Of a stretch of DNA of 20,740 nucleotides, positions 2,900 to 20,400 are shown one piece after another. A program made the translations under genes and the position numbers. Source of the stretch: a virus. Every line of letters begins with the position of its first letter. The first letter of the stretch is position 1. Below the pieces are notes generated by a model, which was given only the letters and a program-made list of their open reading frames with translations, did not search any database and was not told the origin of the DNA. The stretch is taken from positions 17,724 to 38,463 of the IMG/VR virus record IMGVR_UViG_3300030110_004345, one strand, 5' to 3'.

Positions 2900-5368
2900 T
2901 TAGCCAAATATGTCGAACTTCTTAAAGTAGTTTCTTACGTTTTCATTGGTGGACGTGGGCACTTTTGCTACCCTGGCAAACGCTCTTTGGAAGATTGCTT
3001 TTAGTTCATCTTCGTCGTCAATGTCGTTTACTATTTTCTCTACCGCGTTAAACTGACCTTCGCTGGAATTGTCGGTGAGTCCTATTTCGTATTGCATGTT
3101 ATAGTCATTGTCATTATCTGGTCCAGACACGTAGAGTGAGGAATTTGGGTAGCTATACTCGCCTTCTTCGCCTCCAACTGCTTTTCTCAACTCCTCTCTT
3201 ACAGCAACGTGATATTCTCTGCTCGCGTCATTAAGACCGCCGAATTTCATTGGTCCACCCATGACAATCATTTTTGTTATTTCTCTCTGAACGTGTGCGA
3301 TTACTGCTTTTAGGTCTGGTAGCGCTTCGGACTTTTTATCCTCAAACTCTTGACTGACGACTTCATAACCTACCACGTTGTCGTCAGCGTCATAAACCCT
3401 TGCGACCTCTGCTATCTCGCTTCCATCGAACTTAACTGGAATAAGAGTGCTTAATCCACCTGGGGTGGGGTTGCGATCTAAAGTCACTGGGATCTTTTTT
3501 ACTAAGTCTTCCAGATTTACATACTGCCTTGTCTCAATCTCAATATCAGTTGGGTTATAGCGGTCGTCCATTTCAGAATCCCACTCGTAGTAAGTGTTAT
3601 CATTAAACATTTTAGCGAACTCTTGAATAGGACTGCCTTTGATAGCGCCCTCAATCATTAGTGCCTCTCGCACTGCTAACTCGTATTGTTCGTGAGCATC
3701 GTCTTGTCGATCAATATTAGATAATAATTCATCAAGACCATCTATTCCATAAGCAAGTGTTCCGCCTTCTCTATTTATAGACATCATATCGAGAGGAACA
3801 TCAATAAAGACCATTCCGTCCGATCCTCTATAATACACTCGTTCTTCTTTATCTACTGGTAGGTAATCAGACATATACTCTACAATGTTCTGTATTGCAT
3901 TTCTCGTGAAGTCGGTGAAAGCGGATTGGGTAAACTCATCTTCTGGGATTTTCACCACCATCACCGCTTCATTAATGGAAATATAAAATTGTCCGTCTTC
4001 AAGATCAATGTCGCCCATAGTGACCCTCGCAGCATGGGAACGTCTATTAAACTCATCCACCATTTCTTCTGCTTGTTCTGTGACCGCGCCAACACCTGCT
4101 GTGAGCGTTAAACTATTTTCGGTTGTAGAATCTACTTGTATATACCCTGTAAAGTCTGATAAGTTTTCAAAGCGGTCATCATCTAAAAGCTGTCTTAATA
4201 ATGTCTCTGGTGAGTTATCTTGGTGATAAGTTCCACCATGACGTATCCAGTTGTCCATATTAAATTTTCCGTCTGAAAGCATGTCCTCATCGTCTTTCAT
4301 TTTCTTAAGAGAATCTTCCTGTGATCCTTGCGCCCACTTAACAACGCTATTCACCATAGCATCACCAAAACCTCTGTTGTCTCCATAAACTCTCTTTGCT
4401 GGGACGGCGATGGTCATATTAAACTTTGGTGAAGAGTATTTTCTTATTCTTAATCTGTTTATGGGTGTAATCTCACCTTCCACTCTTTCGTCGTCATAGA
4501 AGAATTCTTCTTCGTCATCCTCGTATTGATCTAAAAGTGCTTGGTAATCTCCTTTGTCCAGTTCTTTTTCTTCTAGTGCCTCATCCAAGTCTTCATTGCG
4601 AACAAGATAAGCAACTGGTCCGTGTCCGTGTGCTTCTGCTACGGCACACTTATAGTAAGAAGCATCGCCGCCTTTGGATGGTGGCGAGTGGCATGACTGA
4701 ATGCGGTCAAAGTCAGACATTCTAAAAACATCAATCGGATGTCTTGTGATGATAACGGTGTGTCCGGACTTTGTTGCGCCGCGCTTCTCCCAATCAGAAA
4801 GCACTTCTTTGAGCTTGTATACCATCAACTTAAGTTGAACTGGGTCCGTCTCGGGGTCGACAAAGAACTGTCTATACTTTTTTTCATCGCCTTTTTCTAA
4901 AAAGTTAATACCTTTTCTTAGAAGTTTACCCACCTTCATTTGACGACGGCGCAGGTTTCTTTGCATTTGTGCTATTTTCTCTGAGTCGGCTGGCTTACTC
5001 AGGTTTGCTACATTTATTTTGCCCTCTGGGGTTACAAAACTTTCTTGTTGATCCAAAGATAGCATTCTTGTGTTTTTACTCCTGCCTTCGCCGCTGCTCA
5101 TAGTGTAACCAGTTGCGATGCCTGTTTTCATATCGACAGTGTAACCTGCTTTGTTTAGGAACTTTTCTGTTTCTGTTTTGATGCCTTCTGTGCCGAGAGG
5201 AATGGCGATTCTCATTTTGTCGCCAAAGATATTATTGAATGAAAGGTCTTTTGGATCTAGTTTGAGAAGTATATCATCGAGTTCCCCGATCTCTTCTTCC
5301 GTGGCTTCCTCAATAGGCTCTTTGTTTTCTGTTAGATATTGGTCCCAACGGTTCATCCAATCTGTCAT
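2900..5368 (-). CDS. Large phage protein with an SC(H)-type domain; possible internal virion protein
   Basis: The 822-aa product is not from a family I can name. Its N-terminus MTDWMNRWDQYLTE is short and amphipathic and ends in LTE, resembling T4 internal-protein capsid-targeting peptides cleaved after L-x-E; this is inference. Around 209-256 it has ITRHPIDVFRMSD, then SCHS (225-228) and a strand-rich YYKCAVAEAHGHGPVAYLV segment, then a very acidic stretch. This pattern (a Cys-containing turn, then a 'CA..EA' and 'VAYLV' strand pair) is similar in layout to the WC block of the 546-aa protein at 5949-7589 and to the HCVGG block of PcfJ-like proteins. The C-terminal half is acidic with no motif I can identify. 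Start ATG 5368 has AGGAG 9 nt upstream. Coding is certain, role unknown. Confidence 0.85.
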   Translation of the reverse strand: MTDWMNRWDQYLTENKEPIEEATEEEIGELDDILLKLDPKDLSFNNIFGDKMRIAIPLGTEGIKTETEKFLNKAGYTVDMKTGIATGYTMSSGEGRSKNTRMLSLDQQESFVTPEGKINVANLSKPADSEKIAQMQRNLRRRQMKVGKLLRKGINFLEKGDEKKYRQFFVDPETDPVQLKLMVYKLKEVLSDWEKRGATKSGHTVIITRHPIDVFRMSDFDRIQSCHSPPSKGGDASYYKCAVAEAHGHGPVAYLVRNEDLDEALEEKELDKGDYQALLDQYEDDEEEFFYDDERVEGEITPINRLRIRKYSSPKFNMTIAVPAKRVYGDNRGFGDAMVNSVVKWAQGSQEDSLKKMKDDEDMLSDGKFNMDNWIRHGGTYHQDNSPETLLRQLLDDDRFENLSDFTGYIQVDSTTENSLTLTAGVGAVTEQAEEMVDEFNRRSHAARVTMGDIDLEDGQFYISINEAVMVVKIPEDEFTQSAFTDFTRNAIQNIVEYMSDYLPVDKEERVYYRGSDGMVFIDVPLDMMSINREGGTLAYGIDGLDELLSNIDRQDDAHEQYELAVREALMIEGAIKGSPIQEFAKMFNDNTYYEWDSEMDDRYNPTDIEIETRQYVNLEDLVKKIPVTLDRNPTPGGLSTLIPVKFDGSEIAEVARVYDADDNVVGYEVVSQEFEDKKSEALPDLKAVIAHVQREITKMIVMGGPMKFGGLNDASREYHVAVREELRKAVGGEEGEYSYPNSSLYVSGPDNDNDYNMQYEIGLTDNSSEGQFNAVEKIVNDIDDEDELKAIFQRAFARVAKVPTSTNENVRNYFKKFDIFG

Positions 5369-5404
5369 ATTTTATGTCTCCTGAACTGTAGTATTAATTA
5401 GTAT

Positions 5405-9009: not shown

Positions 9010-10587
9010 TCAGACTTCAACAATCGCAAAGTTTGACGTGATAAGTGTGCCTGCTACAGATACAGAATTTTGTAAAGCGCAACGAGTGACGCGAGCCGGA
9101 TCTATAACCCCTCGTTCTATAAGGTCCACCATTTTGTGCTCACTAAAATCATAACCAAAGTTTTTTTCTTGCCTTTCTACATCGAAGACGATAATATCTG
9201 GTGATTCGCCTGCATTAAGACACATCTGTCGTAGAGGTTCCCTGCAAGCACCTTGAACTATCTTAACTCCTAACATTTGTGTTTCGTTCTCTACTTTATC
9301 TTCTAAAAACTCTACCATTTTTTGAGAGTTTTGGACCAAGAAAGAACCTCCACCGGGTAAAACACCCTCTGCTTGTGCGGACTTGACTGCTTCCAGCGCG
9401 TCTTCTATTCTATGTGTTTTCTCAATCATTTCGATCTCGGTTGCGGCGCCGACACGAATAACTGAAATGCCTGAAGCAAGACGTGTGATTCTTTCTTGTA
9501 TTTTATCACACTCGTGTAAACTTTCTGTGTCTTGTATAATTGCTTTTAGTTTTTCTATCTGTTCTTCGACATTATCAAGAGAGCCTTTGCCGCCGAGAAT
9601 GGTCGTCCAGTTTTTTCCAACCTCAAGTTTTTTTGCTTTACCAAAATCTGTGAGCTTGACTTCTTTTAATTTCTTGCCCATCTGTCTGGAGACAAAAGTA
9701 GCGCCGACTGAAAGTGCAAGGTCTTTTAGAATGTTCCTTCTTTCCTCACCGTAACGAGGTGCTTTGATACCACATACTCTCATGGTTCCACGCATGGCAT
9801 TCATAATAAGAGCGGCGAGTGCTTGACCCTCAATGTCTTCTGCTACGACTACAAAGGGTCTGCCTTCCCGTGCTGCGATTTCTAGTGCGGGTAAGAGTGT
9901 TTCTACGGATTCAATCTTCTCGTCTGTAACTAGAATGATGGGTTCGTCGTAACTTACAACACCACGTTTCTCGTCATTAATAAAAGCTGTTGCTAAATAA
10001 CCGGAATCAAAGCGAAAACCTTCTACAAGGTCTAGGCTTGTTTCTACAGAACGTGCCTCTTCAATGGTAACTGAACCATCTTTACCAGCAAGATCAACTG
10101 CTTTTGCGATAAGACGACCAATAACTTTATCACCATTTGCCGAAATAGTGGCGATGGATTCAATATCGTCGATTGATTTAATAGGAGTCGCTTCCTCTTT
10201 TATTTGATTGACCAAATGATTAACAGCGAGATCCATTCCTTTTTTTAATTCTACTGGTGCGGCACCAGAGGCAAGATACTTTTGCGCTTCACGATACATC
10301 GCATAAGTTAAAACAGTTGTAGTTGTTGTTCCGTCGCCTGCTTCTTGATTTGTTTTTTCTGCTGCTTGCTTTACGATTTGGGCACCAGCGTTTTGGAATG
10401 AGTTTTCTAAATCAATGAACTTCGCAACCGTCACGCCGTCTTTTGTGGCGATTGGCATACGATCTTTTTGATGTAGGATCACAGTGCGACCTTTGGGTCC
10501 AAGGGTAGAAGCAACGTTCGTTGCAATAGTTTCTATACCCTTTTCAAGTTGAGAGCGTAAGCTCTCCGAGTTACTAAATTTTTTCAT
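9010..10587 (-). CDS. groEL: GroEL-like chaperonin (phage-type, no GGM tail)
   Basis: The 525-aa group I chaperonin keeps the ATPase residues: LGPKG (29-33), KDG (49-51, Asp50), DGTTT (85-89), Asp396 in RIEDAL (the position of catalytic D398 in E. coli GroEL), PGGG (411-414) and VIDP (494-497). The protein would fold phage or host polypeptides with ATP. It is shorter than the 548-aa E. coli protein and ends at ...NFAIVEV with no C-terminal GGM repeat. It is clearly diverged (TTTTTVL for TTTATVL; MRVCGIKAPRYG in the apical domain). No groES is in the window; the host co-chaperonin, a distant phage one, or GroES-free action as described for some phage chaperonins are alternatives. ATG 10587 has AGAGGTG upstream and a perfect promoter. 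Confidence 0.95.
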   Translation of the reverse strand: MKKFSNSESLRSQLEKGIETIATNVASTLGPKGRTVILHQKDRMPIATKDGVTVAKFIDLENSFQNAGAQIVKQAAEKTNQEAGDGTTTTTVLTYAMYREAQKYLASGAAPVELKKGMDLAVNHLVNQIKEEATPIKSIDDIESIATISANGDKVIGRLIAKAVDLAGKDGSVTIEEARSVETSLDLVEGFRFDSGYLATAFINDEKRGVVSYDEPIILVTDEKIESVETLLPALEIAAREGRPFVVVAEDIEGQALAALIMNAMRGTMRVCGIKAPRYGEERRNILKDLALSVGATFVSRQMGKKLKEVKLTDFGKAKKLEVGKNWTTILGGKGSLDNVEEQIEKLKAIIQDTESLHECDKIQERITRLASGISVIRVGAATEIEMIEKTHRIEDALEAVKSAQAEGVLPGGGSFLVQNSQKMVEFLEDKVENETQMLGVKIVQGACREPLRQMCLNAGESPDIIVFDVERQEKNFGYDFSEHKMVDLIERGVIDPARVTRCALQNSVSVAGTLITSNFAIVEV

Positions 10588-10637: not shown

Positions 10638-11552
10638 CTATTCGCCTCTTTTTTTAGGATAAGGTAAATTTATTTTCTTTGGGTTGTTCTCGGCAAACAA
10701 CTGTTTAAGTTGCTTTGTTTCTTTTTTAGACCGCCCAAGAATGTAGCAATACTTGTGCTTTGGTGGAACGGTTCTACTAATGCAAGAAGAACGATACTTT
10801 TCTTCTTCTTGTTTTATTTTTGTTTTAGTGTCGGCTGGAATGATATCCCAGTTGGGCGAATACTTTTTCATCCAGCTTTTCCATAGGTCTTTATCTAGTC
10901 CCATGTTCTCGGCATACATTTTATATTTTGACTTCTTGCGAAAGTCTCTATCACTAAACCAACCTTTGTTTGGCTTGGCTGGATCAAGGTATTGTTTTGC
11001 TGTGCCGCTTGTTTGACCCAGGTAAGTCCAGTTCATTGCTTGATAAATGGTTCCAAGTTCTTTTGCTTCTGGGTCTGAATAGGCTGTAAAGATGCGGAAA
11101 TCTGTGTTTCTTACCATCCATTTAACTGACTGTGAGACTATCCAAGAGCCCAGGTTCTTTGGAGCCCAACTAATGCTAGCTCCACGGGCTACTAACTTTT
11201 CTAGATCACGGTTTTCTTTTCCTAAAAGGTGACTGAAAGCGTTGGGTGTCGCCATGATAACCACGCCTGCGAGAGCAGAATTCTGTTTCAGTCTCGCTGT
11301 AAAGCGGTGAGTTGGTCGGTTTGGAATGTTCCCAAGCCATTCGTGTTTTTTGATAAAGTCTTTTATTTCTTCGCATTGTTTCTTATCTTCTTTGTCTACA
11401 TAACTGAACAGGAAGTCATCAACAGATAGTTTTTCCATTTCGTTTTTAGATAGACCAATGGCTTTGAGGTCGTCTTCTAGGTTTTGTAAACGAATCTCAT
11501 ATTGCCAGCAATGGTCTTTTGAATAGTTTTTAAAGCGTTCTCGGACGAGCAC
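10638..11552 (-). CDS. Mom-like GNAT-fold protein, possible DNA base modification enzyme
   Basis: The 304-aa product resembles the phage Mom-like / GNAT group. It has a HRFTARL strand (82-88), a hydrophobic strand LAGVVIMATP (94-103), an RGASISWAPKNLGSWIVS stretch (123-140) and the diagnostic block TAYSDPEAKELGTIYQAMNW (157-174) followed by TYLGQTSG. A C-terminal KHKYCYILG...LPYPK pattern (265-300) is also seen in these proteins. Mu Mom modifies adenine so that phage DNA escapes restriction; related phage GNATs are mostly untested. The GTG start follows directly on the TAA of the nuclease-like gene (TAAGTG), with AGAGGAA a few bases before it, so the pair is translationally coupled. Alternatives are another acetyltransferase with a protein or small-molecule substrate. 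No Com-like regulator was seen. Confidence 0.75.
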   Translation of the reverse strand: MLVRERFKNYSKDHCWQYEIRLQNLEDDLKAIGLSKNEMEKLSVDDFLFSYVDKEDKKQCEEIKDFIKKHEWLGNIPNRPTHRFTARLKQNSALAGVVIMATPNAFSHLLGKENRDLEKLVARGASISWAPKNLGSWIVSQSVKWMVRNTDFRIFTAYSDPEAKELGTIYQAMNWTYLGQTSGTAKQYLDPAKPNKGWFSDRDFRKKSKYKMYAENMGLDKDLWKSWMKKYSPNWDIIPADTKTKIKQEEEKYRSSCISRTVPPKHKYCYILGRSKKETKQLKQLFAENNPKKINLPYPKKRGE

Positions 11553-12770
11553 TTATTCCTCTTCTGGGTTTGGTAGACTTGGAAATATCTTCTCTAATGA
11601 TTTTGTAAATCCAGGCTTGCTATCTTTTGCAAAATCCGCTCTTAGTGCAACCGTGTAAGAATAATTGGGACCATGATATTTTATCCTAAATAGAGCGTAT
11701 GCTCTTTTCATAGCACTAGAAAGTTGTGGCAAACCTGTCCCTTTATCTTCTACTAGTGAATAAATGTCATTCCCAAGTATAGCGTATGTATCGCCCTTTT
11801 CTCCGTAATATTCTTGTATTAAATTTTTACTTATTTCAAATTCCCTGACATTCCCACTTAAACTTTTTTTGCCTCTGGGCTCTCCAAGGGTATTCCAAAA
11901 ATCTTCTGCCCCTTTGCTATTAATCATTGGACCGGTTGGGAACGGTTTATTTGTTGCTGGTTTTATTTCAGTGTTTAAGGAAACTTTTATTTCATCAAAC
12001 ACTTTTTTCATTGTCTCGGTTTCTTTTCCTCTTTTTTTCGGGGCTTTTACCCACTGACCTTTTTTACCTTTTTCGTTTTCGTATTTTATTGTAAACTGAC
12101 CGAGATCTACTCTACTGCCTTTGCTTGTTTTTGTTTCAAACGACACAAGTGTTTTACCCGTAGTTGCATCCTTAATGACAACATCACTTTCTCCAGTAGA
12201 TCCACCCTCGGCAGTTGCAGTTGCATCAACTATGACATCAGCAATAAAATCATCTTCTGCCATTCTATCTGCCAGAAAAGCATTGATTTGGTTTGCGACT
12301 GTTTTTTCAAAACTATCGCCTTTTGATGCAAGTGTTCCACTGCCGCCATGCTTCATAACTAATTTTATAAACTGCCTTTTTCCACCTTTTGTGACAAAAT
12401 AATAGTTTGTAAGACCATCTCGTGATAGTCCCGCACGATAAGGTTCTGTTTGGGATATGATATCTGCACCCATAAGGGCTTTTATTATTTTGTGTCTATC
12501 TTGAAGTGGTCCGAAATTATCTAAAACAATAGTTCTTTTTCCACCTTTATAAGTGGCACCTTTTGGAAGTGGAGAAACTTGTGCTATTTTTCCTAATAGA
12601 ATACTTGCAACTTCTTCACCGCTCAAAGACGAGTCAAGTTCAAAAGGATCTTCATCTTTCTCTTCTTGTTCTTTCATAACCTCATCAAATATCTCATATA
12701 ACATTTGTTTTGTCAAGGTTTTTGGTTTGGGAGCAAAGTAGTTTTCTACGAGGGTTTTAAGATCGGACAT
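11553..12770 (-). CDS. Predicted PD-(D/E)XK nuclease with helical N-terminal module
   Basis: The 405-aa product has an N-terminal helical region containing KTLTKQMLYEIFDEVMKE (17-34), a module of the LTK..L...I.E type often found at the start of marine phage proteins. A core at 150-230 has helix residue E155 (DSFEKTVANQI), strand ESDVVI (194-199, Asp196) and SFETK (210-214, Glu212-x-Lys214), then Q225. E...D...ExK is the PD-(D/E)XK restriction-endonuclease-fold pattern, so metal-dependent DNA cleavage is likely but unproven. It lies directly upstream of the Mom-like gene. ATG 12770 has AAGGA upstream, 12 nt from the start, with an ACTATTTATA element between. Residues 5-10 (KTLVEN) contain an L-x-E site that could serve as a head-processing signal. 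Confidence 0.65.
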   Translation of the reverse strand: MSDLKTLVENYFAPKPKTLTKQMLYEIFDEVMKEQEEKDEDPFELDSSLSGEEVASILLGKIAQVSPLPKGATYKGGKRTIVLDNFGPLQDRHKIIKALMGADIISQTEPYRAGLSRDGLTNYYFVTKGGKRQFIKLVMKHGGSGTLASKGDSFEKTVANQINAFLADRMAEDDFIADVIVDATATAEGGSTGESDVVIKDATTGKTLVSFETKTSKGSRVDLGQFTIKYENEKGKKGQWVKAPKKRGKETETMKKVFDEIKVSLNTEIKPATNKPFPTGPMINSKGAEDFWNTLGEPRGKKSLSGNVREFEISKNLIQEYYGEKGDTYAILGNDIYSLVEDKGTGLPQLSSAMKRAYALFRIKYHGPNYSYTVALRADFAKDSKPGFTKSLEKIFPSLPNPEEE

Positions 12771-12785: not shown

Positions 12786-13460
12786 TTATACGATGATGTC
12801 AGCAATTCCGTATTTTACTGCTTCTTCTGCGGTAAGGTAAACGTCTAGGTTTTTACCAAGCATTCTTTTTAGCTGTTTTTCGGTCAAGTTTGTTTCCTCG
12901 ACCAAAGACTGAATAAGCTGCTTTTGAATCCAGCGAGTCTCGTCCATTTCGTTTTCTAATGAGTGAATAGTTCCTACGTGTCCGCCGCGAACAGAGTGCA
13001 TCATGACTCGGCAGTGTTTGCCAATCTTACGCTGACCTTTTGTTCCTGCCGCGAGTAAAAGAACACCAGCAGACATAACCTTACCTAAACCAAAAGTTTC
13101 GATAGCGCACTCTTCGCGAACAATACGCATAAGATCATATATACCAAACATACCAAGAGCGTCACCGCCCCAAGTGGAAACATAAAATGTAATCGGTTTT
13201 GGTTCTGGCTTTGGTGGTTCTTCACCTTCCTCTGCTGGGGGCATCCCCAGTGGAAAGTCTGTATTAAGATTTGCTGTGTGCTTTAGAAAAAGAAAGCCCG
13301 AACAGATGTCTTCAACTTTTTCTTCATCTAGATCGCCAAAAAGACCAATAGTCCGTAGAGGCTCTGGTGTGTTGGCTGCGGCAGCCATTTGAAGATCGGC
13401 AAGACTTATAGTTTCTTTTCCGTCTTCACCTTCTTCTTTATTATTTTTAATCTTCAGCAT
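12786..13460 (-). CDS. ClpP-like serine protease with an inserted Pro/Glu-rich loop
   Basis: The 224-aa protein has a ClpP fold with an intact triad: Ser130 in VMSAGVLL, His155 in RVMMHSVRGG and Asp206 in LDVYLTAEEA, plus the oxyanion-type VSTWGGD (94-100) in place of INSPGG. Between the FLFLKHTANL helix and the next strand it carries an extra stretch of about 24 residues rich in Pro and Glu (66-89) not present in ordinary ClpP. The start at ATG 13460 (MLKIKNNKEE) is chosen for its GGAGGG 9 nt upstream; a longer frame to 13493 lacks such a site. It overlaps the preceding gene by 14 bp. It may take part in host or phage proteolysis or in head maturation, since ClpP-fold prohead proteases exist. 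No ClpX/ClpA ATPase gene is in the window. Confidence 0.88.
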   Translation of the reverse strand: MLKIKNNKEEGEDGKETISLADLQMAAAANTPEPLRTIGLFGDLDEEKVEDICSGFLFLKHTANLNTDFPLGMPPAEEGEEPPKPEPKPITFYVSTWGGDALGMFGIYDLMRIVREECAIETFGLGKVMSAGVLLLAAGTKGQRKIGKHCRVMMHSVRGGHVGTIHSLENEMDETRWIQKQLIQSLVEETNLTEKQLKRMLGKNLDVYLTAEEAVKYGIADIIV

Positions 13461-13866
13461 TTGGATTGCCCTCCTTTTTGACAATGTAATCACCGTCTAG
13501 AACACCCATATAATGCTTTTCTAAAGTGTTCATGACTGTTTCCCATCCATCTATTTTAAGGGCAGAGCGATAACGAGAGGGAACAGACTCATTAAGACCT
13601 TTAACTGCTTCTTTCTTCCATTCTAATAAATCCGCTTCATCTGTATTTTTTAATATCTTAATATGCTCTTCATCGTGTTCGTTTGCCTTTAAATAAATAT
13701 ATTTTGCAGCAGTGATTGTCGCCCACTGCGTATAGGCATATCCAATAAGTTTAAAAGAAAGCACTTTAATATCATTTAAAAATTTTACTTTCTTATAAAA
13801 AGAGATGGATCTATCTACGATTAGATAGACAAATCCACCCAAGAAAAACCAAAAGATCTCTTGCAT
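13447..13866 (-). CDS. Membrane-anchored phage protein of unknown function
   Basis: The 139-aa product begins with a hydrophobic segment (IFWFFLGGFVYLIV, 4-17) that fits an N-in/C-out or signal-anchor helix, followed by a basic stretch (SFYKKVKFL) and a mainly helical, charged soluble domain (KANEHDEEHIKILKNTDE; WKKEAVKGLNESVP). I do not recognise the family by name. ATG 13866 has GAGG 6 nt upstream. It lies between the acidic protein and the ClpP-like protease, and overlaps the latter. Confidence 0.78.
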   Translation of the reverse strand: MQEIFWFFLGGFVYLIVDRSISFYKKVKFLNDIKVLSFKLIGYAYTQWATITAAKYIYLKANEHDEEHIKILKNTDEADLLEWKKEAVKGLNESVPSRYRSALKIDGWETVMNTLEKHYMGVLDGDYIVKKEGNPNAED

Positions 13867-13888: not shown

Positions 13889-13917
13889 GCTATATTTATT
13901 TACTTGGACTTTTTCAA
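13889..13917 (-). promoter_or_regulatory. Weak candidate promoter before the membrane-anchored protein
   Basis: Minus strand TTGAAA (13912-13917), 17-nt spacer, TATAGC (13889-13894): 5 of 6 and 4 of 6 matches. It overlaps the 3' end of the acidic protein gene. It may be chance in AT-rich sequence. Confidence 0.3.
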
Positions 13918-14511
13918 GCCTTTAAGACGTTGAGCAACACGACGGGCAACTTCGTTAACCATGTCTTCCATCATTGGCTCCTCTTCCATCTCTTCTTCGG
14001 CGTCCATTTCCATGTCGTCCATAGGCTCGTCCATATCACCCATATCAGGTGCTGGCATTTCCTCTGGTGCGTCCATTTCCATAGCTGCACGAACTTTGTC
14101 TGCTACTTTAAGGAAGACTTCAGCTTCTTCGTCAGTGAGAGTGAGTTCGCCCATATCACCGGCGTCCATATCCATTTCTTCTTCTTCGTCTTCGACATCT
14201 AAATCCATCTCCTCGTCATCTTGCATTGGGTCATCTTTCATAGCGCCATGATCCATCTCTTCAAGATCATCTTTCATCTCGTCATCAGCCATTGGGGGTG
14301 GGGTTGGTCCTCTTTCCTCAAGATCAACATCTTCTTCCATGGGCTTATCATCTTTGTCTTCTTGCTTCGGCTTCGTGCGTTGTTGATCATCAGCCTTTTT
14401 GGGGGCGCCATACATTTCGTTGACAAAACCATCTCCAACCACTTCCATGTTAGCAAGTTTCATGAAGCGACGGATGGTTCCCTCTTCAAGTAAAGTCTTT
14501 TTGTCAGACAT
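13900..14511 (-). CDS. Highly acidic Met/Asp/Glu-rich phage protein (possible head scaffold/core)
   Basis: The 203-aa product begins MSDKKTLLEEGTIRRFMKLANM; this RRFMKLAN box is one I associate with marine myophage proteins. The central 150 residues are extremely acidic with many Met-Asp and Glu-Met pairs, then a short basic C-terminus (EVARRVAQRLKGLKKSK). Strong acidity with basic ends is typical of scaffold or prohead-core proteins, but no family assignment can be proven. The LLEE at 7-10 is a possible L-x-E processing site. ATG 14511 is favoured over TTG 14517 because AGGAG is 7 nt upstream of it. A 6-bp hairpin and an ACTATTTATA element lie in the leader. The low-complexity composition makes homology searches unreliable. 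Confidence 0.8.
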   Translation of the reverse strand: MSDKKTLLEEGTIRRFMKLANMEVVGDGFVNEMYGAPKKADDQQRTKPKQEDKDDKPMEEDVDLEERGPTPPPMADDEMKDDLEEMDHGAMKDDPMQDDEEMDLDVEDEEEEMDMDAGDMGELTLTDEEAEVFLKVADKVRAAMEMDAPEEMPAPDMGDMDEPMDDMEMDAEEEMEEEPMMEDMVNEVARRVAQRLKGLKKSK

Positions 14512-14527
14512 ATTCAATCTCCTTTTT

Positions 14528-14809: not shown

Positions 14810-15139
14810 TTATTCCTCGCTTTCAATTAAGTCAAAAATGTTTTCAATATCATCTGGATTTAAACCAAACTTATTTTTTATTTCTTTTTCTTTTTCAAGT
14901 AGTTGACGATTTTTCTTTAGTTTGTGTTTTCTCGCCATCATGCTACTTTCTTTAATTTTTTCTATGAAAGGCTGAAGAAGCGGATCATCTAAAAGATAGC
15001 CTTTAATGTATTCATTAAAAAACCAGAACTTTGTAATGTCATCGAACTTTAGTTTTATTCTTAAATTTGTATCTAATGTTTCCAGACTATCAATGGTAAT
15101 AGTTTTCGCTTCTTCGGGCTTTGCTTTTCTTTTTTTCAT
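14810..15139 (-). CDS. Hypothetical charged helical protein (109 aa)
   Basis: The 109-aa product is rich in Lys and Glu, with a predicted coiled-coil or helical hairpin (KIKESSMMARKHKLKKNRQL, 64-83) and an acidic tail (DDIENIFDLIESEE). I recall similar small proteins from myophages but cannot name a function. ATG 15139 overlaps the IMPDH stop by 4 bp (ATGA), so translation is coupled. Confidence 0.75.
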   Translation of the reverse strand: MKKRKAKPEEAKTITIDSLETLDTNLRIKLKFDDITKFWFFNEYIKGYLLDDPLLQPFIEKIKESSMMARKHKLKKNRQLLEKEKEIKNKFGLNPDDIENIFDLIESEE

Positions 15140-16155
15140 TTAGATAGGATGTGAGTTTTACTTTCAGATAATCCGGCTGTAGTTTGTCTTGTCCACTGGG
15201 CTTTAGTTTGTAGTTCACTAATGGATCTACAGCCTGAGTAAGATAAGCCAGATACCATGCCACCTCGAAGATCTTCTAGAATATTTCTAACTGGACCTCT
15301 GTAATCAATAAAAGTGCTCACGCCCTCATTAGAACTATAACGACCGCGCCAATCCATTTGAGCGTCTTTAGAAGCCATTCCGCGATATCGCTTTTTTAAA
15401 CCTTGTGGAAGTTGAACAACTTCTCCTGGGGTTTCGTCTGTTCCTGCTAGGAGGGATCCCAGCATAACAAAGTCTGCTCCGGCAGCCAAAGCTTTTACAA
15501 TATCGCCTGCAGTTCTAATACCGCCATCGGCAATGATAGTAACATCGTGTTCTGTTTTTGCGCAATCAAAAATAGTTTGTAGTCCAGGTAGTCCATGTCC
15601 TGTTTGTATTCTTGTAGAACAAATAGAACCACCGCCAATGTTACAACGCACAGAATCGGCACCCCAAGTTGCCAATGCATTTATGCCCTCTAAAGTTGCA
15701 ACATTACCCGCCATAATATGCACAGAGTCATTAAAAGCATTTTTTAAAACACCTAACGCTTCTTTCATTAAAATATGATGACCATGTGCTACATCAACAC
15801 AAAGAACACTCACACCATTCTCTACGAGCGTTTGGGCTCTTTCAAAGTAATCACCGCTAACTCCAATAGCAGCACCTACTTTTTGAGCCCCTGCGCTTAT
15901 AACTTCAGCGACCATTCCAGATTGTTCTTCTATCGAGTTATATCGATGAATAACACCTAAGCCGCCAACAGAATCCATAGTGAATGCCATTTCTGATTCA
16001 GTGACCGTATCCATAGGAGAGGAAACAATCGGAAGACCACAAGCTAAACTAGAATCTAAAGAAGAAGCTAAGTTAACCTCGCTCCTGCTTTTGATATTAG
16101 AATACTGTGGAACTAAAAGTACATCATCATAAGTTAGTGCTTCTTTCATTCGCAT
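15136..16155 (-). CDS. guaB: IMP dehydrogenase (GuaB-like), lacking CBS domains
   Basis: The 339-aa TIM-barrel enzyme would convert IMP to XMP in GMP synthesis. Family motifs are present: LTYDDVLLVP (7-16), SSPMDTVTE (45-53), catalytic loop GGGSICSTR (174-182, Cys179), ADGGIRTAGD (209-218), MLGSLLAGTDETPGE (231-245) and YRGMASKDA (257-265), with a TTAGLSES C-terminus like that of GuaB. The CBS pair normally inserted near residues 75-100 is absent, as in GMP reductase. The MLGSLLAG...PGE block and C-terminus favour IMPDH, but GMP reductase is the main alternative. Two ATGs 6 nt apart (16155, 16149) follow AAGGAAGG. The start overlaps the DUF3310 gene by 10 bp. With dUTPase and DnaE it forms a nucleotide and replication set. 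Confidence 0.88.
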   Translation of the reverse strand: MRMKEALTYDDVLLVPQYSNIKSRSEVNLASSLDSSLACGLPIVSSPMDTVTESEMAFTMDSVGGLGVIHRYNSIEEQSGMVAEVISAGAQKVGAAIGVSGDYFERAQTLVENGVSVLCVDVAHGHHILMKEALGVLKNAFNDSVHIMAGNVATLEGINALATWGADSVRCNIGGGSICSTRIQTGHGLPGLQTIFDCAKTEHDVTIIADGGIRTAGDIVKALAAGADFVMLGSLLAGTDETPGEVVQLPQGLKKRYRGMASKDAQMDWRGRYSSNEGVSTFIDYRGPVRNILEDLRGGMVSGLSYSGCRSISELQTKAQWTRQTTAGLSESKTHILSK

Positions 16156-17449: not shown

Positions 17450-20400
17450 TTATCCTAATAATTTCCAATCTTTAAGGGCACCCCTAGAAGAGAAGCCCCA
17501 TTGTTCATCAAAGTTAAGTTTTGCCATGTAGGGTCGATTAACGAACAATGTATCTTTTTCTGGGTTTACGCCCCAGCAACGGATATCGGTCATCACACTA
17601 TTCTTGTCTATTGTTTTGACAATATAATATGGGCGACCTTTTACTGTTTTCTTTTTAATTACTTCTCTTGGAATAAACCAAGCAACACCAAGATCATGGT
17701 CCCATTCAGAAATAGTTGGGACTTTGTAATAACTCAACCTTTGTACTATATCATCCGAAACAACCAATGTCAAGGGGAACATACCAGTAATATTAGTTTT
17801 TGTTTCAATATATTCATCTCTAGTAAAGTCTTCAGTGCCTTTAAACTCTTCTATGTTTTCAGACAATTTCTTTTTAGTCTTAGGTCTATTGTCTGCAACA
17901 GATAACCAAAAGTGCTTTTGATTTCTAAATCTATCATCCATTAACTCATCTACGGCTTCTGCTTTGATGAGGACATCCAATGCTTTCTTATTGAGTTTAG
18001 AATAGACAATCTCTTTGCTAAAGAGAAGCTCTTCAACAGAGTTAAATGGTCTATGTTCGATGATTTGTTCAATTGCTTTGTCTCCTAATCCTTTTATCGA
18101 AGTCAAGGGCTGGATGAGCGTTCTTTGGTCCTCGCCAATATCCCAGACAGAACTGGATCTATTGATATTAACAGGCTCTAACTTAAACCCAAACTTCTTT
18201 GCTATATTGATTGCTTTTTCTTTTCTACTCTCTGGTTCTTTGTCCAGAAAAGCTGCCATCCAACAATCAGGATAATAATTAAATAGCCAAGCACATTGAA
18301 AAGATATAATAGAATAAGAAACAGCATGAGACTTATTGAAACCATAGCCGGAGAAGAACTCAAACTTCGCCCACATTTTTTCTGCCCATTGTTCCTTTAA
18401 ACCTTTATCGATACATCCTTGAATAAACTTAAGCTTTATTTTATTTTTTTGTTCGGCGGCTGCTCCAGTGCCCTTTTTAGTTAACAGCTTACGAAGCTTA
18501 TTACCTTCATCAAGGGACAAGTCCTTACCGAGTCTGTGAGCCAACAAAGCAATTTGTTCTTGGAAGATAAGAAAGCCATAGGTTTCTTTTGTAACTTCTT
18601 TTACAATATCATGCCCGTAACGAACACCTCTTGGGTTTTCTTTTGCTTCTACAAAATCTTCGTGAACGTTGGCTGATAATGGACCAGGACGATAGATAGA
18701 AGTGATAGAAGCAATATCAATAATGTTTTTCGGCTTTGCTCTTCTACAAAAGTTCTGTGCGCCTTTTTCAGCAAACTGAAATATACCTGCCCACTTGCCT
18801 TTCCAAAAGACATTCTCATAGACTTTCTTATCTTTTAGATTTATACTTTCTGGATGTAAGTTCTTATCATAAAACTTTTTAATGTCCTCGAAAGTAGGAT
18901 CTGGATTTCCTTGTTTCTTCAGGATATGATACACAGCACCCTCAATCATTTTCAGAGTAGAAAGACCAAGGATATCAAATTTAATAAAGCCCATCGGTTC
19001 TAGCTGACGAACATGCTGACCTTCGGACCAAGGAGTTTGAGTTACGCCGCCGGAGTTGATAAGCGGCATGTATTTATCCAACTCTTCGCCAATAACAACA
19101 CCACCAGCATGGCGAGATACAGAACGAACCTCACCGACAAGTGCCTCTACGTGTGTCTTTATCTTTGGATACTTTCGAAGAAACGCTTTGAGGGAATCAG
19201 AATATTCCATTACCTCTTCAAATGTAGGCGCATAAATACCTGCTTTAATGCCATGTTTCTTTTTAGCAATGGGCGTTGCTTCAGCTAGCATTTTAGAAGT
19301 AACAGCATTAGACTCTGTAAATGGAACCTCATAGAACTTTGCTATATCTTTGATAAGAGAGCGTAACTGTAGCTTGTTAAAGTTAGAGATAGGCACAACT
19401 GTGTTGCCACCCCACTCATCAATCAGCATTTCTTTTAGTTCCATTGGATTCGACACATCATAATCGATATCAGGATAATCTTTTGAATCTTTCGTCATAA
19501 AACGAGAGAATAGAAGATTATATTTGATAGGATCAACTTGTGTGATACCAAGGGCATAAGCAACCAATGAACCTGCAGCCGAACCTCGACCGGCGCCTGT
19601 AAGCTGAACTTCTGTTGCTTTGTCAGCGATAGACTTCATTGTAAGGAAATATTTGCTAAAACCTCGCTCGCTGATTACATTCATCTCTTCTTTTAATCTT
19701 TCAACATACTCTGGGTTGTTTGTTAAGCCAAGCCCTCTAAGCCCATCCACACAAGCAGCGACAAGGGCTCTATCGGGAGTTTGCCCAGCGGGAACAACAA
19801 AGTTTGGAAGCCTAACGGTATTGTCGGGCATAAACTTTTCAATACGCTGGTGAGCGATTTGATGCGTTCTTTCAATAGATTCACGGATAAGATTATCATT
19901 GTATTCTACTCCTGCTTTTTGAGAATATTCTTTATATGCCTCCCACATTTGGTCGCCATTCTTTGGGAACAGTTCATAACCGATCTCTTCGACACCCTCT
20001 GGAAGTTCTGTGTTTGTTGCCCACTTCGGCATACCCCTGCTCAACCAACCTAATCTTTTGTAAAGTTCTCGATCTTTCCAAGCCGTTCTGTTTGGATAGT
20101 GACTATCAGCCGTAGAAATTAATTCGACGCCAAATTCGTTACAAACTTTTACAATTAGACGGTTTAGTTGGTGCTGTTCTGGCACATTGTTCCATTGAAG
20201 TTCGCCATACCAGCGATCGCCAAAGATATCAACCATGTTCCTGGTTGTGTCGCGCATAGCGTTAAGTACGGCTTCTTCGCCTTCTTCACGGTTTTCCCAG
20301 AAGTTTCCAGCGTATACACCACCAAGACAGGCTGACGCAGCGATTACACCTTCGTTGTGTTCTTTGAGCATAGCATAGTCAATACGAGGGAAACGATAAA

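Follow-up and report, generated by a model that had tools for sequence, protein, structure and literature searches.

A candidate restriction-modification-like cassette, a predicted nuclease coupled to a Mom-family protein, in the clpP-groEL interval of a putative marine T4-like phage

The window analysed here is the whole stretch of 20,740 nucleotides that corresponds to positions 17724-38463 of the IMG/VR record IMGVR_UViG_3300030110_004345 (107,477 b, hereafter G000). The source is a marine phage, probably T4-like and tailed judging from its ORFs, which include tail sheath-, capsid- and prohead protease-like proteins; a near-identical contig of 138,595 b (L011) is also present in IMG/VR. On the minus strand, the genes are arranged in the order clpP, nuclease (P0002), mom (P0001) and groEL (Table 1). 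The earlier note had described a nuclease-like gene and a Mom-like gene that meet without a gap at TAAGTG, and we recover both ORFs in this arrangement: P0002 starts with an ATG at 12770 and stops with a TAA at 11553-11555, and the GTG of P0001 follows immediately at 11552. The sequence of this boundary is GAAGAGGAATAAGTG. An AGAGGAA located in the last codons of P0002 is Shine-Dalgarno-like and may couple the translation of mom to that of the nuclease. Homologues of P0001 and P0002, at 24-100% identity, are found in many IMG/VR contigs, which shows that the two ORFs did not arise by chance. Elsewhere in the window, positions 15136-16155 encode a homologue of IMP dehydrogenase/GMP reductase (PF00478, E=1e-105), and positions 1-555 of the minus strand hold an ORF with FDGFCDGMNIEFKTK that is nuclease-like (D...ExK); it spans positions 17514-18278 of G000 and is partly masked there.

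Table 1. Coordinates, in the window, of the features of the clpP-groEL interval and of its borders.
Feature	Position	Strand	Basis or remark
ClpP-family protease	12786..13493	-	PF00574, E=5e-28; upstream slot border, retained in most relatives
Predicted PD-(D/E)XK nuclease P0002, 405 aa, slot-cargo family A	11553..12770	-	Conserved residues and AF2 core
P0002 leader, residues 1-36, MSDLKTLVENYFAPKPKTLTKQMLYEIFDEVMKEQE	12663..12770	-	Common to otherwise unrelated cargo bodies
Predicted catalytic stretch of P0002	12129..12308	-	Alignments and secondary structure of the model
Predicted catalytic residues of P0002	E155 12306-12308; D196 12183-12185; E212 12135-12137; K214 12129-12131	-	
Shine-Dalgarno-like AGAGGAA for mom	11556..11562	-	Inside the last nuclease codons
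Mom-family DNA modification protein P0001, 304 aa, GTG start	10638..11552	-	PF25680, phrog_1384, alignment with Mu Mom
Mom (GNAT-like) domain, residues 65-225	10878..11360 (YSDP at 11070-11081)	-	
GroEL-type chaperonin	9010..10587	-	PF00118, E=9e-63; downstream slot border, retained in relatives

The assignment of P0001 to the Mom family, as predicted by profile and alignment, is solid. The protein matches PF25680 with an E-value of 4.7e-12 and 46.4 bits, for a curated cut-off of 27.1, and phrog_1384, described as 'Mom-like DNA modification protein', with an E-value of 1.3e-19. The Mom-like call had initially been made from TAYSDP...GTIYQAMNW; the YSDP...GTIYQA.N block is kept across 17 relatives, in agreement with that call. 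P0001 is 21% identical to Mom of phage Mu, the common residues including D160, G167, Y170-Q171-A172 and N174, and its R123 and N133 are also aligned with the Mu Mom core. A sequence search of the PDB with P0001 returned no Mom relative. Acylation of adenine at N6 is established for Mu Mom (PMC7824862).

P0002 had no match in Pfam, PHROG or NCBIfam, and it is aligned here with the IMG/VR groups A, A2 and I. In 21 sequences that are mostly 15-30% identical to P0002, D196, E212 and K214 never vary and E155 hardly does, which bears out the E...D...ExK core read earlier from P0002 itself; in group I the motif reads GPD...EVK. With the same number of sequences, AlphaFold modelled residues 135-405 with a pLDDT of 76 and a pTM of 0.73. 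In this predicted core, a helix carrying E155 is followed by a strand, a strand with D196 at its start, a strand carrying E212 and K214 and, further on, a helix and a strand; in the model, this is the element order of the PD-(D/E)XK fold. A Foldseek search with the core matched no solved structure; it did match the predicted structure of Q58MG2 (PSSM2_192) from Prochlorococcus phage P-SSM2, with E=1.5e-7 and a probability of 1.00. Sequence searches of the PDB with P0002 and with two nuclease-family alignments returned no nuclease relative, and an AAR2 match at E=0.03 was taken as chance. A model of full-length P0002 built from 8 sequences was discarded (pLDDT 63, pTM 0.50), its Foldseek matches being meaningless. 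Altogether, the earlier assignment to the PD-(D/E)XK nucleases gains from the conserved residues and the predicted topology, on which we regard it as likely, but has no counterpart among PDB folds.

The clpP-groEL interval, which the earlier note had not recognised as a cassette slot with swapped nuclease bodies and a packaging-like leader, usually contains in related contigs a protein that starts with the same leader of ~36 aa and continues into a wholly different body. This leader is carried by bodies A/A2, B, C, D, E, H and F/F', that is by at least seven unlinked groups. The links recovered by profile-profile comparison are confined to A and A2 on one side and to F, F' and G on the other; none was obtained for B, C, D, E or H, and for this reason we do not claim a common origin of all slot bodies. 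As an exception to this lack of links, B and D share a short stretch after the leader. The flanks of the slot barely differ between related contigs. The Mom of the window is 95-98% identical to those of L014-L017, where the neighbouring body belongs to B, C, A2 or D; a single Mom cluster (>=90% identity) adjoins five body families (A, A2, B, C and D). The interval is a cassette slot in which nuclease-like bodies are exchanged. The leader can also be found elsewhere than at the start of a protein: a 755-aa double cargo in L022 (2687-4954) fuses F' and E bodies on either side of a leader-like block, and in L025, L103 and L192 the second block of the leader is C-terminal, so that this block is a movable peptide. 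Scans of the slot cargo bodies against Pfam, PHROG and NCBIfam named no function. The Mom-linked bodies carry D...[ES]xK; those of B, C, D, E and H have the unusual SxK variant, and for them we claim a resemblance to nucleases and nothing more.

Where enough flanking sequence is available, nearly every A2, B, C, D, E or H body in the slot is followed by Mom. Lone F, F' and G bodies have no adjacent Mom, nor is there one elsewhere in the records checked, many of which are fragments; the presence of Mom tracks body type loosely. The nuclease-Mom pairing is not obligate: the pair proposed in the earlier note does recur in other phages, 14 of 51 Mom clusters having an adjacent cargo nuclease, but the other 37 have none. 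Conversely, family A in L008-L010, family D in L074 and family E in L198 have neither Mom nor a methyltransferase next to them; L075, a near-twin of L074, does carry one, and the 53 kb record of L198 has neither Mom nor a D12 methyltransferase. It should be kept in mind that locus counts include near-duplicates, cluster counts being given where it matters, and that IMG/VR contigs are mostly fragments, so that failure to find a gene counts for little.

A search with the A2 group identified nucleases (L174, L176-L178, L182-L186, L189 and L190) that have a D12-class N6-adenine methyltransferase gene directly ahead of them (PF02086, E=1e-26 to 1e-32), the two genes overlapping by 1-4 nt as a rule. 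In L173, the slot reads clpP, a 212-aa ORF, leader and A2 nuclease, D12 methyltransferase and groEL, the methyltransferase occupying the exact position of Mom. The same exchange is seen in the sequence-unrelated E group, which is linked to Mom in L018, L022 and L153 and to D12 in L200 and L202. Across lineages, the nuclease gene adjoins a DNA-modifying enzyme, with Mom or D12 as partner, and the two are mutually exclusive in the large contigs checked: those of 138 kb and 186 kb have Mom and no D12, that of 115 kb has D12 and no Mom. A scan of bacterial genomes with a methyltransferase-linked nuclease returned nothing, and no cellular source was found. Exchange of Mom and D12 beside two unrelated nuclease groups would be hard to explain unless the modifying enzyme protects against the nuclease, and we regard this interchange beside the same nuclease families as the best evidence, from sequence, for a restriction-modification role.

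Other methyltransferase genes were noticed around these loci. In L195, which is the record of L010, positions 3947-5372 hold a D12 methyltransferase and a 173-aa ORF (D...YECK), flanked on either side by genes with a match in G000; the D12 motif of L195 was not found in G000. One idea is that this methyltransferase substitutes for the Mom missing from L010, even though it has its own D...YECK neighbour. Just past the window end, positions 38603-39706 of G000 (G000:C1) encode a probable DNA methyltransferase with an NPPF motif, not of the D12 class, and directly beside it lies a 149-aa ORF with D...DAK (39651-40100); together they possibly form a second restriction-modification-like pair. The unit had been proposed to work 'without a methyltransferase', which stands as far as D12 is concerned but has to be qualified by this probable enzyme of another kind.

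Mom of phage Mu works alone. An alternative is accordingly that Mom is an independent anti-restriction gene directed against host enzymes, as in Mu, that the nuclease is an unrelated accessory gene for DNA processing, recombination or homing, and that their adjacency reflects the shared slot. The Mom clusters devoid of a nuclease and the nucleases devoid of Mom are in its favour. Nevertheless, a D12 methyltransferase replaces Mom next to the same nuclease families, and almost every A2, B, C, D, E or H body in the slot has Mom beside it while no lone F, F' or G does. A shared slot alone does not predict this, and we consider this alternative unlikely.

We propose instead that P0002 and P0001 form a phage-encoded restriction-modification-like cassette, which we hold to be the probable explanation of the whole, slot exchange and leader-directed delivery included. 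Mom, a GNAT-type enzyme predicted to acylate adenine in DNA, would mask the phage's own DNA, and the coupled PD-(D/E)XK-type nuclease would cut unmasked DNA, from the host chromosome and/or from rival phages. The nuclease body is exchanged among unrelated families behind a constant leader, the masking enzyme staying Mom or giving way to D12. Because a near-identical Mom accompanies five body families, it probably protects broadly and not at one recognition site. The restriction-modification-like unit predicted in the earlier note is reinforced by the coupling of D12 to the same nuclease family, but not as an obligate pair.

The leader most likely would send the nuclease into the capsid core, to be injected with the DNA, and Mom, which has no leader, would act on DNA that is soon to enter the capsid. 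Residues 7-9 of the slot leader read LVE, resembling a T4-type prohead protease site, and at least seven otherwise divergent body groups carry this leader. The nucleases linked to a methyltransferase start differently, several of them with [FW]xx[FY]LxE, for example MQMKTLLESFNTFLSEE (FNTFLSEE); this motif is found in 7 of 11 A2-type methyltransferase-linked nucleases (~5 distinct sequences) against none of the 94 other ORFs in these loci. For comparison, T4 ipII and ipIII start with MKTYQEFIAEA. In T4, foreign proteins, EcoRI and a staphylococcal nuclease among them, are directed into the head by the first ten residues, which are removed there (PMC9026906). Like the T4 internal proteins described there, the slot proteins have a short N-terminal leader, an LxE near residue 9 and divergent bodies; unlike the T4 capsid-targeting sequences, the slot leader is distinct and longer, and has a second conserved block. 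By analogy, the slot leader and, more clearly, the methyltransferase-linked N-termini suggest delivery in the virion. An enrichment of LxE at the N-termini of this genome was rejected (25% versus 23% internally), and a leader profile run against the G000 proteins retrieved P0002 and no other phage protein; for these two reasons, the same analogy supports packaging of the window nuclease itself weakly. Two genes upstream of the partner of clpP in the slot region, positions 13900-14517 encode an acidic protein with the N-terminus MSDKKTLLEEGTIRRFMKLANM, whose start is conserved among homologues and whose later part is variable; it is possibly a head-core protein.

A head-targeting leader and N-termini that resemble capsid-targeting sequences would also suit internal head proteins that are structural or bind DNA and whose nuclease-like folds are inactive; the swapping would then be neutral or antigen-like drift. 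SxK in place of ExK in families B to E and H and the lack of a solved-structure match go in the same direction. Yet the P0002 superfamily keeps four catalytic-type residues at 15-30% identity, which is rare in inactive folds, and coupling to two different DNA-masking enzymes would have no role, so that we find this reading rather improbable. Least plausible is that a homing-type or origin-directed nuclease targets a single rival element and that protection by Mom is coincidental. The exchange of cassettes in a fixed slot and their sharing among distant phages would fit this, but Pfam relates the bodies to no known homing family, and they occur with one or the other of two DNA-masking enzymes. 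Within the restriction-modification-like reading, we tentatively raise a more specific possibility, about which we are in some doubt: a polymorphic armament delivered by the virion, in which one leader and a broad mask (Mom or Dam-type) would serve exchanged nucleases injected against host or rival DNA. If so, it would combine the architecture of polymorphic toxins, the delivery of T4 internal proteins and the logic of restriction-modification.

Several known systems are related to this arrangement. In a survey of 224 jumbo phages, Mom and restriction endonuclease typically occur as fused domains, Mom being predicted to protect and the endonuclease to attack (PMC7824862). The present cassette is similar in that Mom is linked to a predicted restriction-endonuclease-type domain, with a proposed role in masking versus attack on host or superinfecting DNA. 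It differs by its two separate, coupled genes, by bodies swapped in a slot behind a constant leader, by the Mom/D12 interchange and possibly by packaging, which are what is new relative to the jumbo-phage prediction; in the literature searched, which included few subscription papers, we found no description of separate-gene cassettes with swapped bodies, a leader and Mom/Dam exchange. As in Type II restriction-modification, a predicted cutter and a masking enzyme are directly adjacent, with a Dam-type methyltransferase in relatives. Unlike in Type II systems, the unit is phage-borne and a near-identical Mom serves several unrelated predicted nucleases, so that the specificities of cutter and mask apparently need not match. 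Chlorovirus restriction enzymes are packaged, reach the host along with the viral genome and are considered to degrade its chromatin, whereas the methyltransferases are not packaged (PMC7019647). The present system would share with them a virus-encoded restriction-type cutter, here predicted, and a DNA-masking enzyme; chloroviruses differ as algal viruses that use methyltransferases, and packaging here is a proposal. This comparison is one of descriptions, apart from a record of cyanophage S-CAM7 that annotates its family-D copy as a CviJI-type restriction enzyme.

Family D also has relatives in cyanophages S-CAM9 and S-PRM1, Sinorhizobium phage phiM12 and Stenotrophomonas phage DLP6, and groups I/A2 in P-SSM2. 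These proteins, PSSM2_192 among them, belong to the same families as the slot cargo but, unlike the cargo of the window, have neither the slot leader nor an adjacent Mom. Several of the cyanophage, phiM12 and DLP6 loci (L164-L170) adjoin genes for DUF6267 and a cytidylyltransferase, which we mention as a speculative further DNA-masking partner.

If the restriction-modification-like reading of P0002 and P0001 is right, phages would run restriction-modification as an offensive weapon in which the cutter is interchangeable and the mask broad, which would explain how a broad mask frees nucleases to diversify. It would also provide a testable bacterial-virus counterpart to the packaged restriction enzymes of chloroviruses. 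Finally, these uncharacterised nuclease families may have new cleavage specificities and may be blocked by Mom-type modification.
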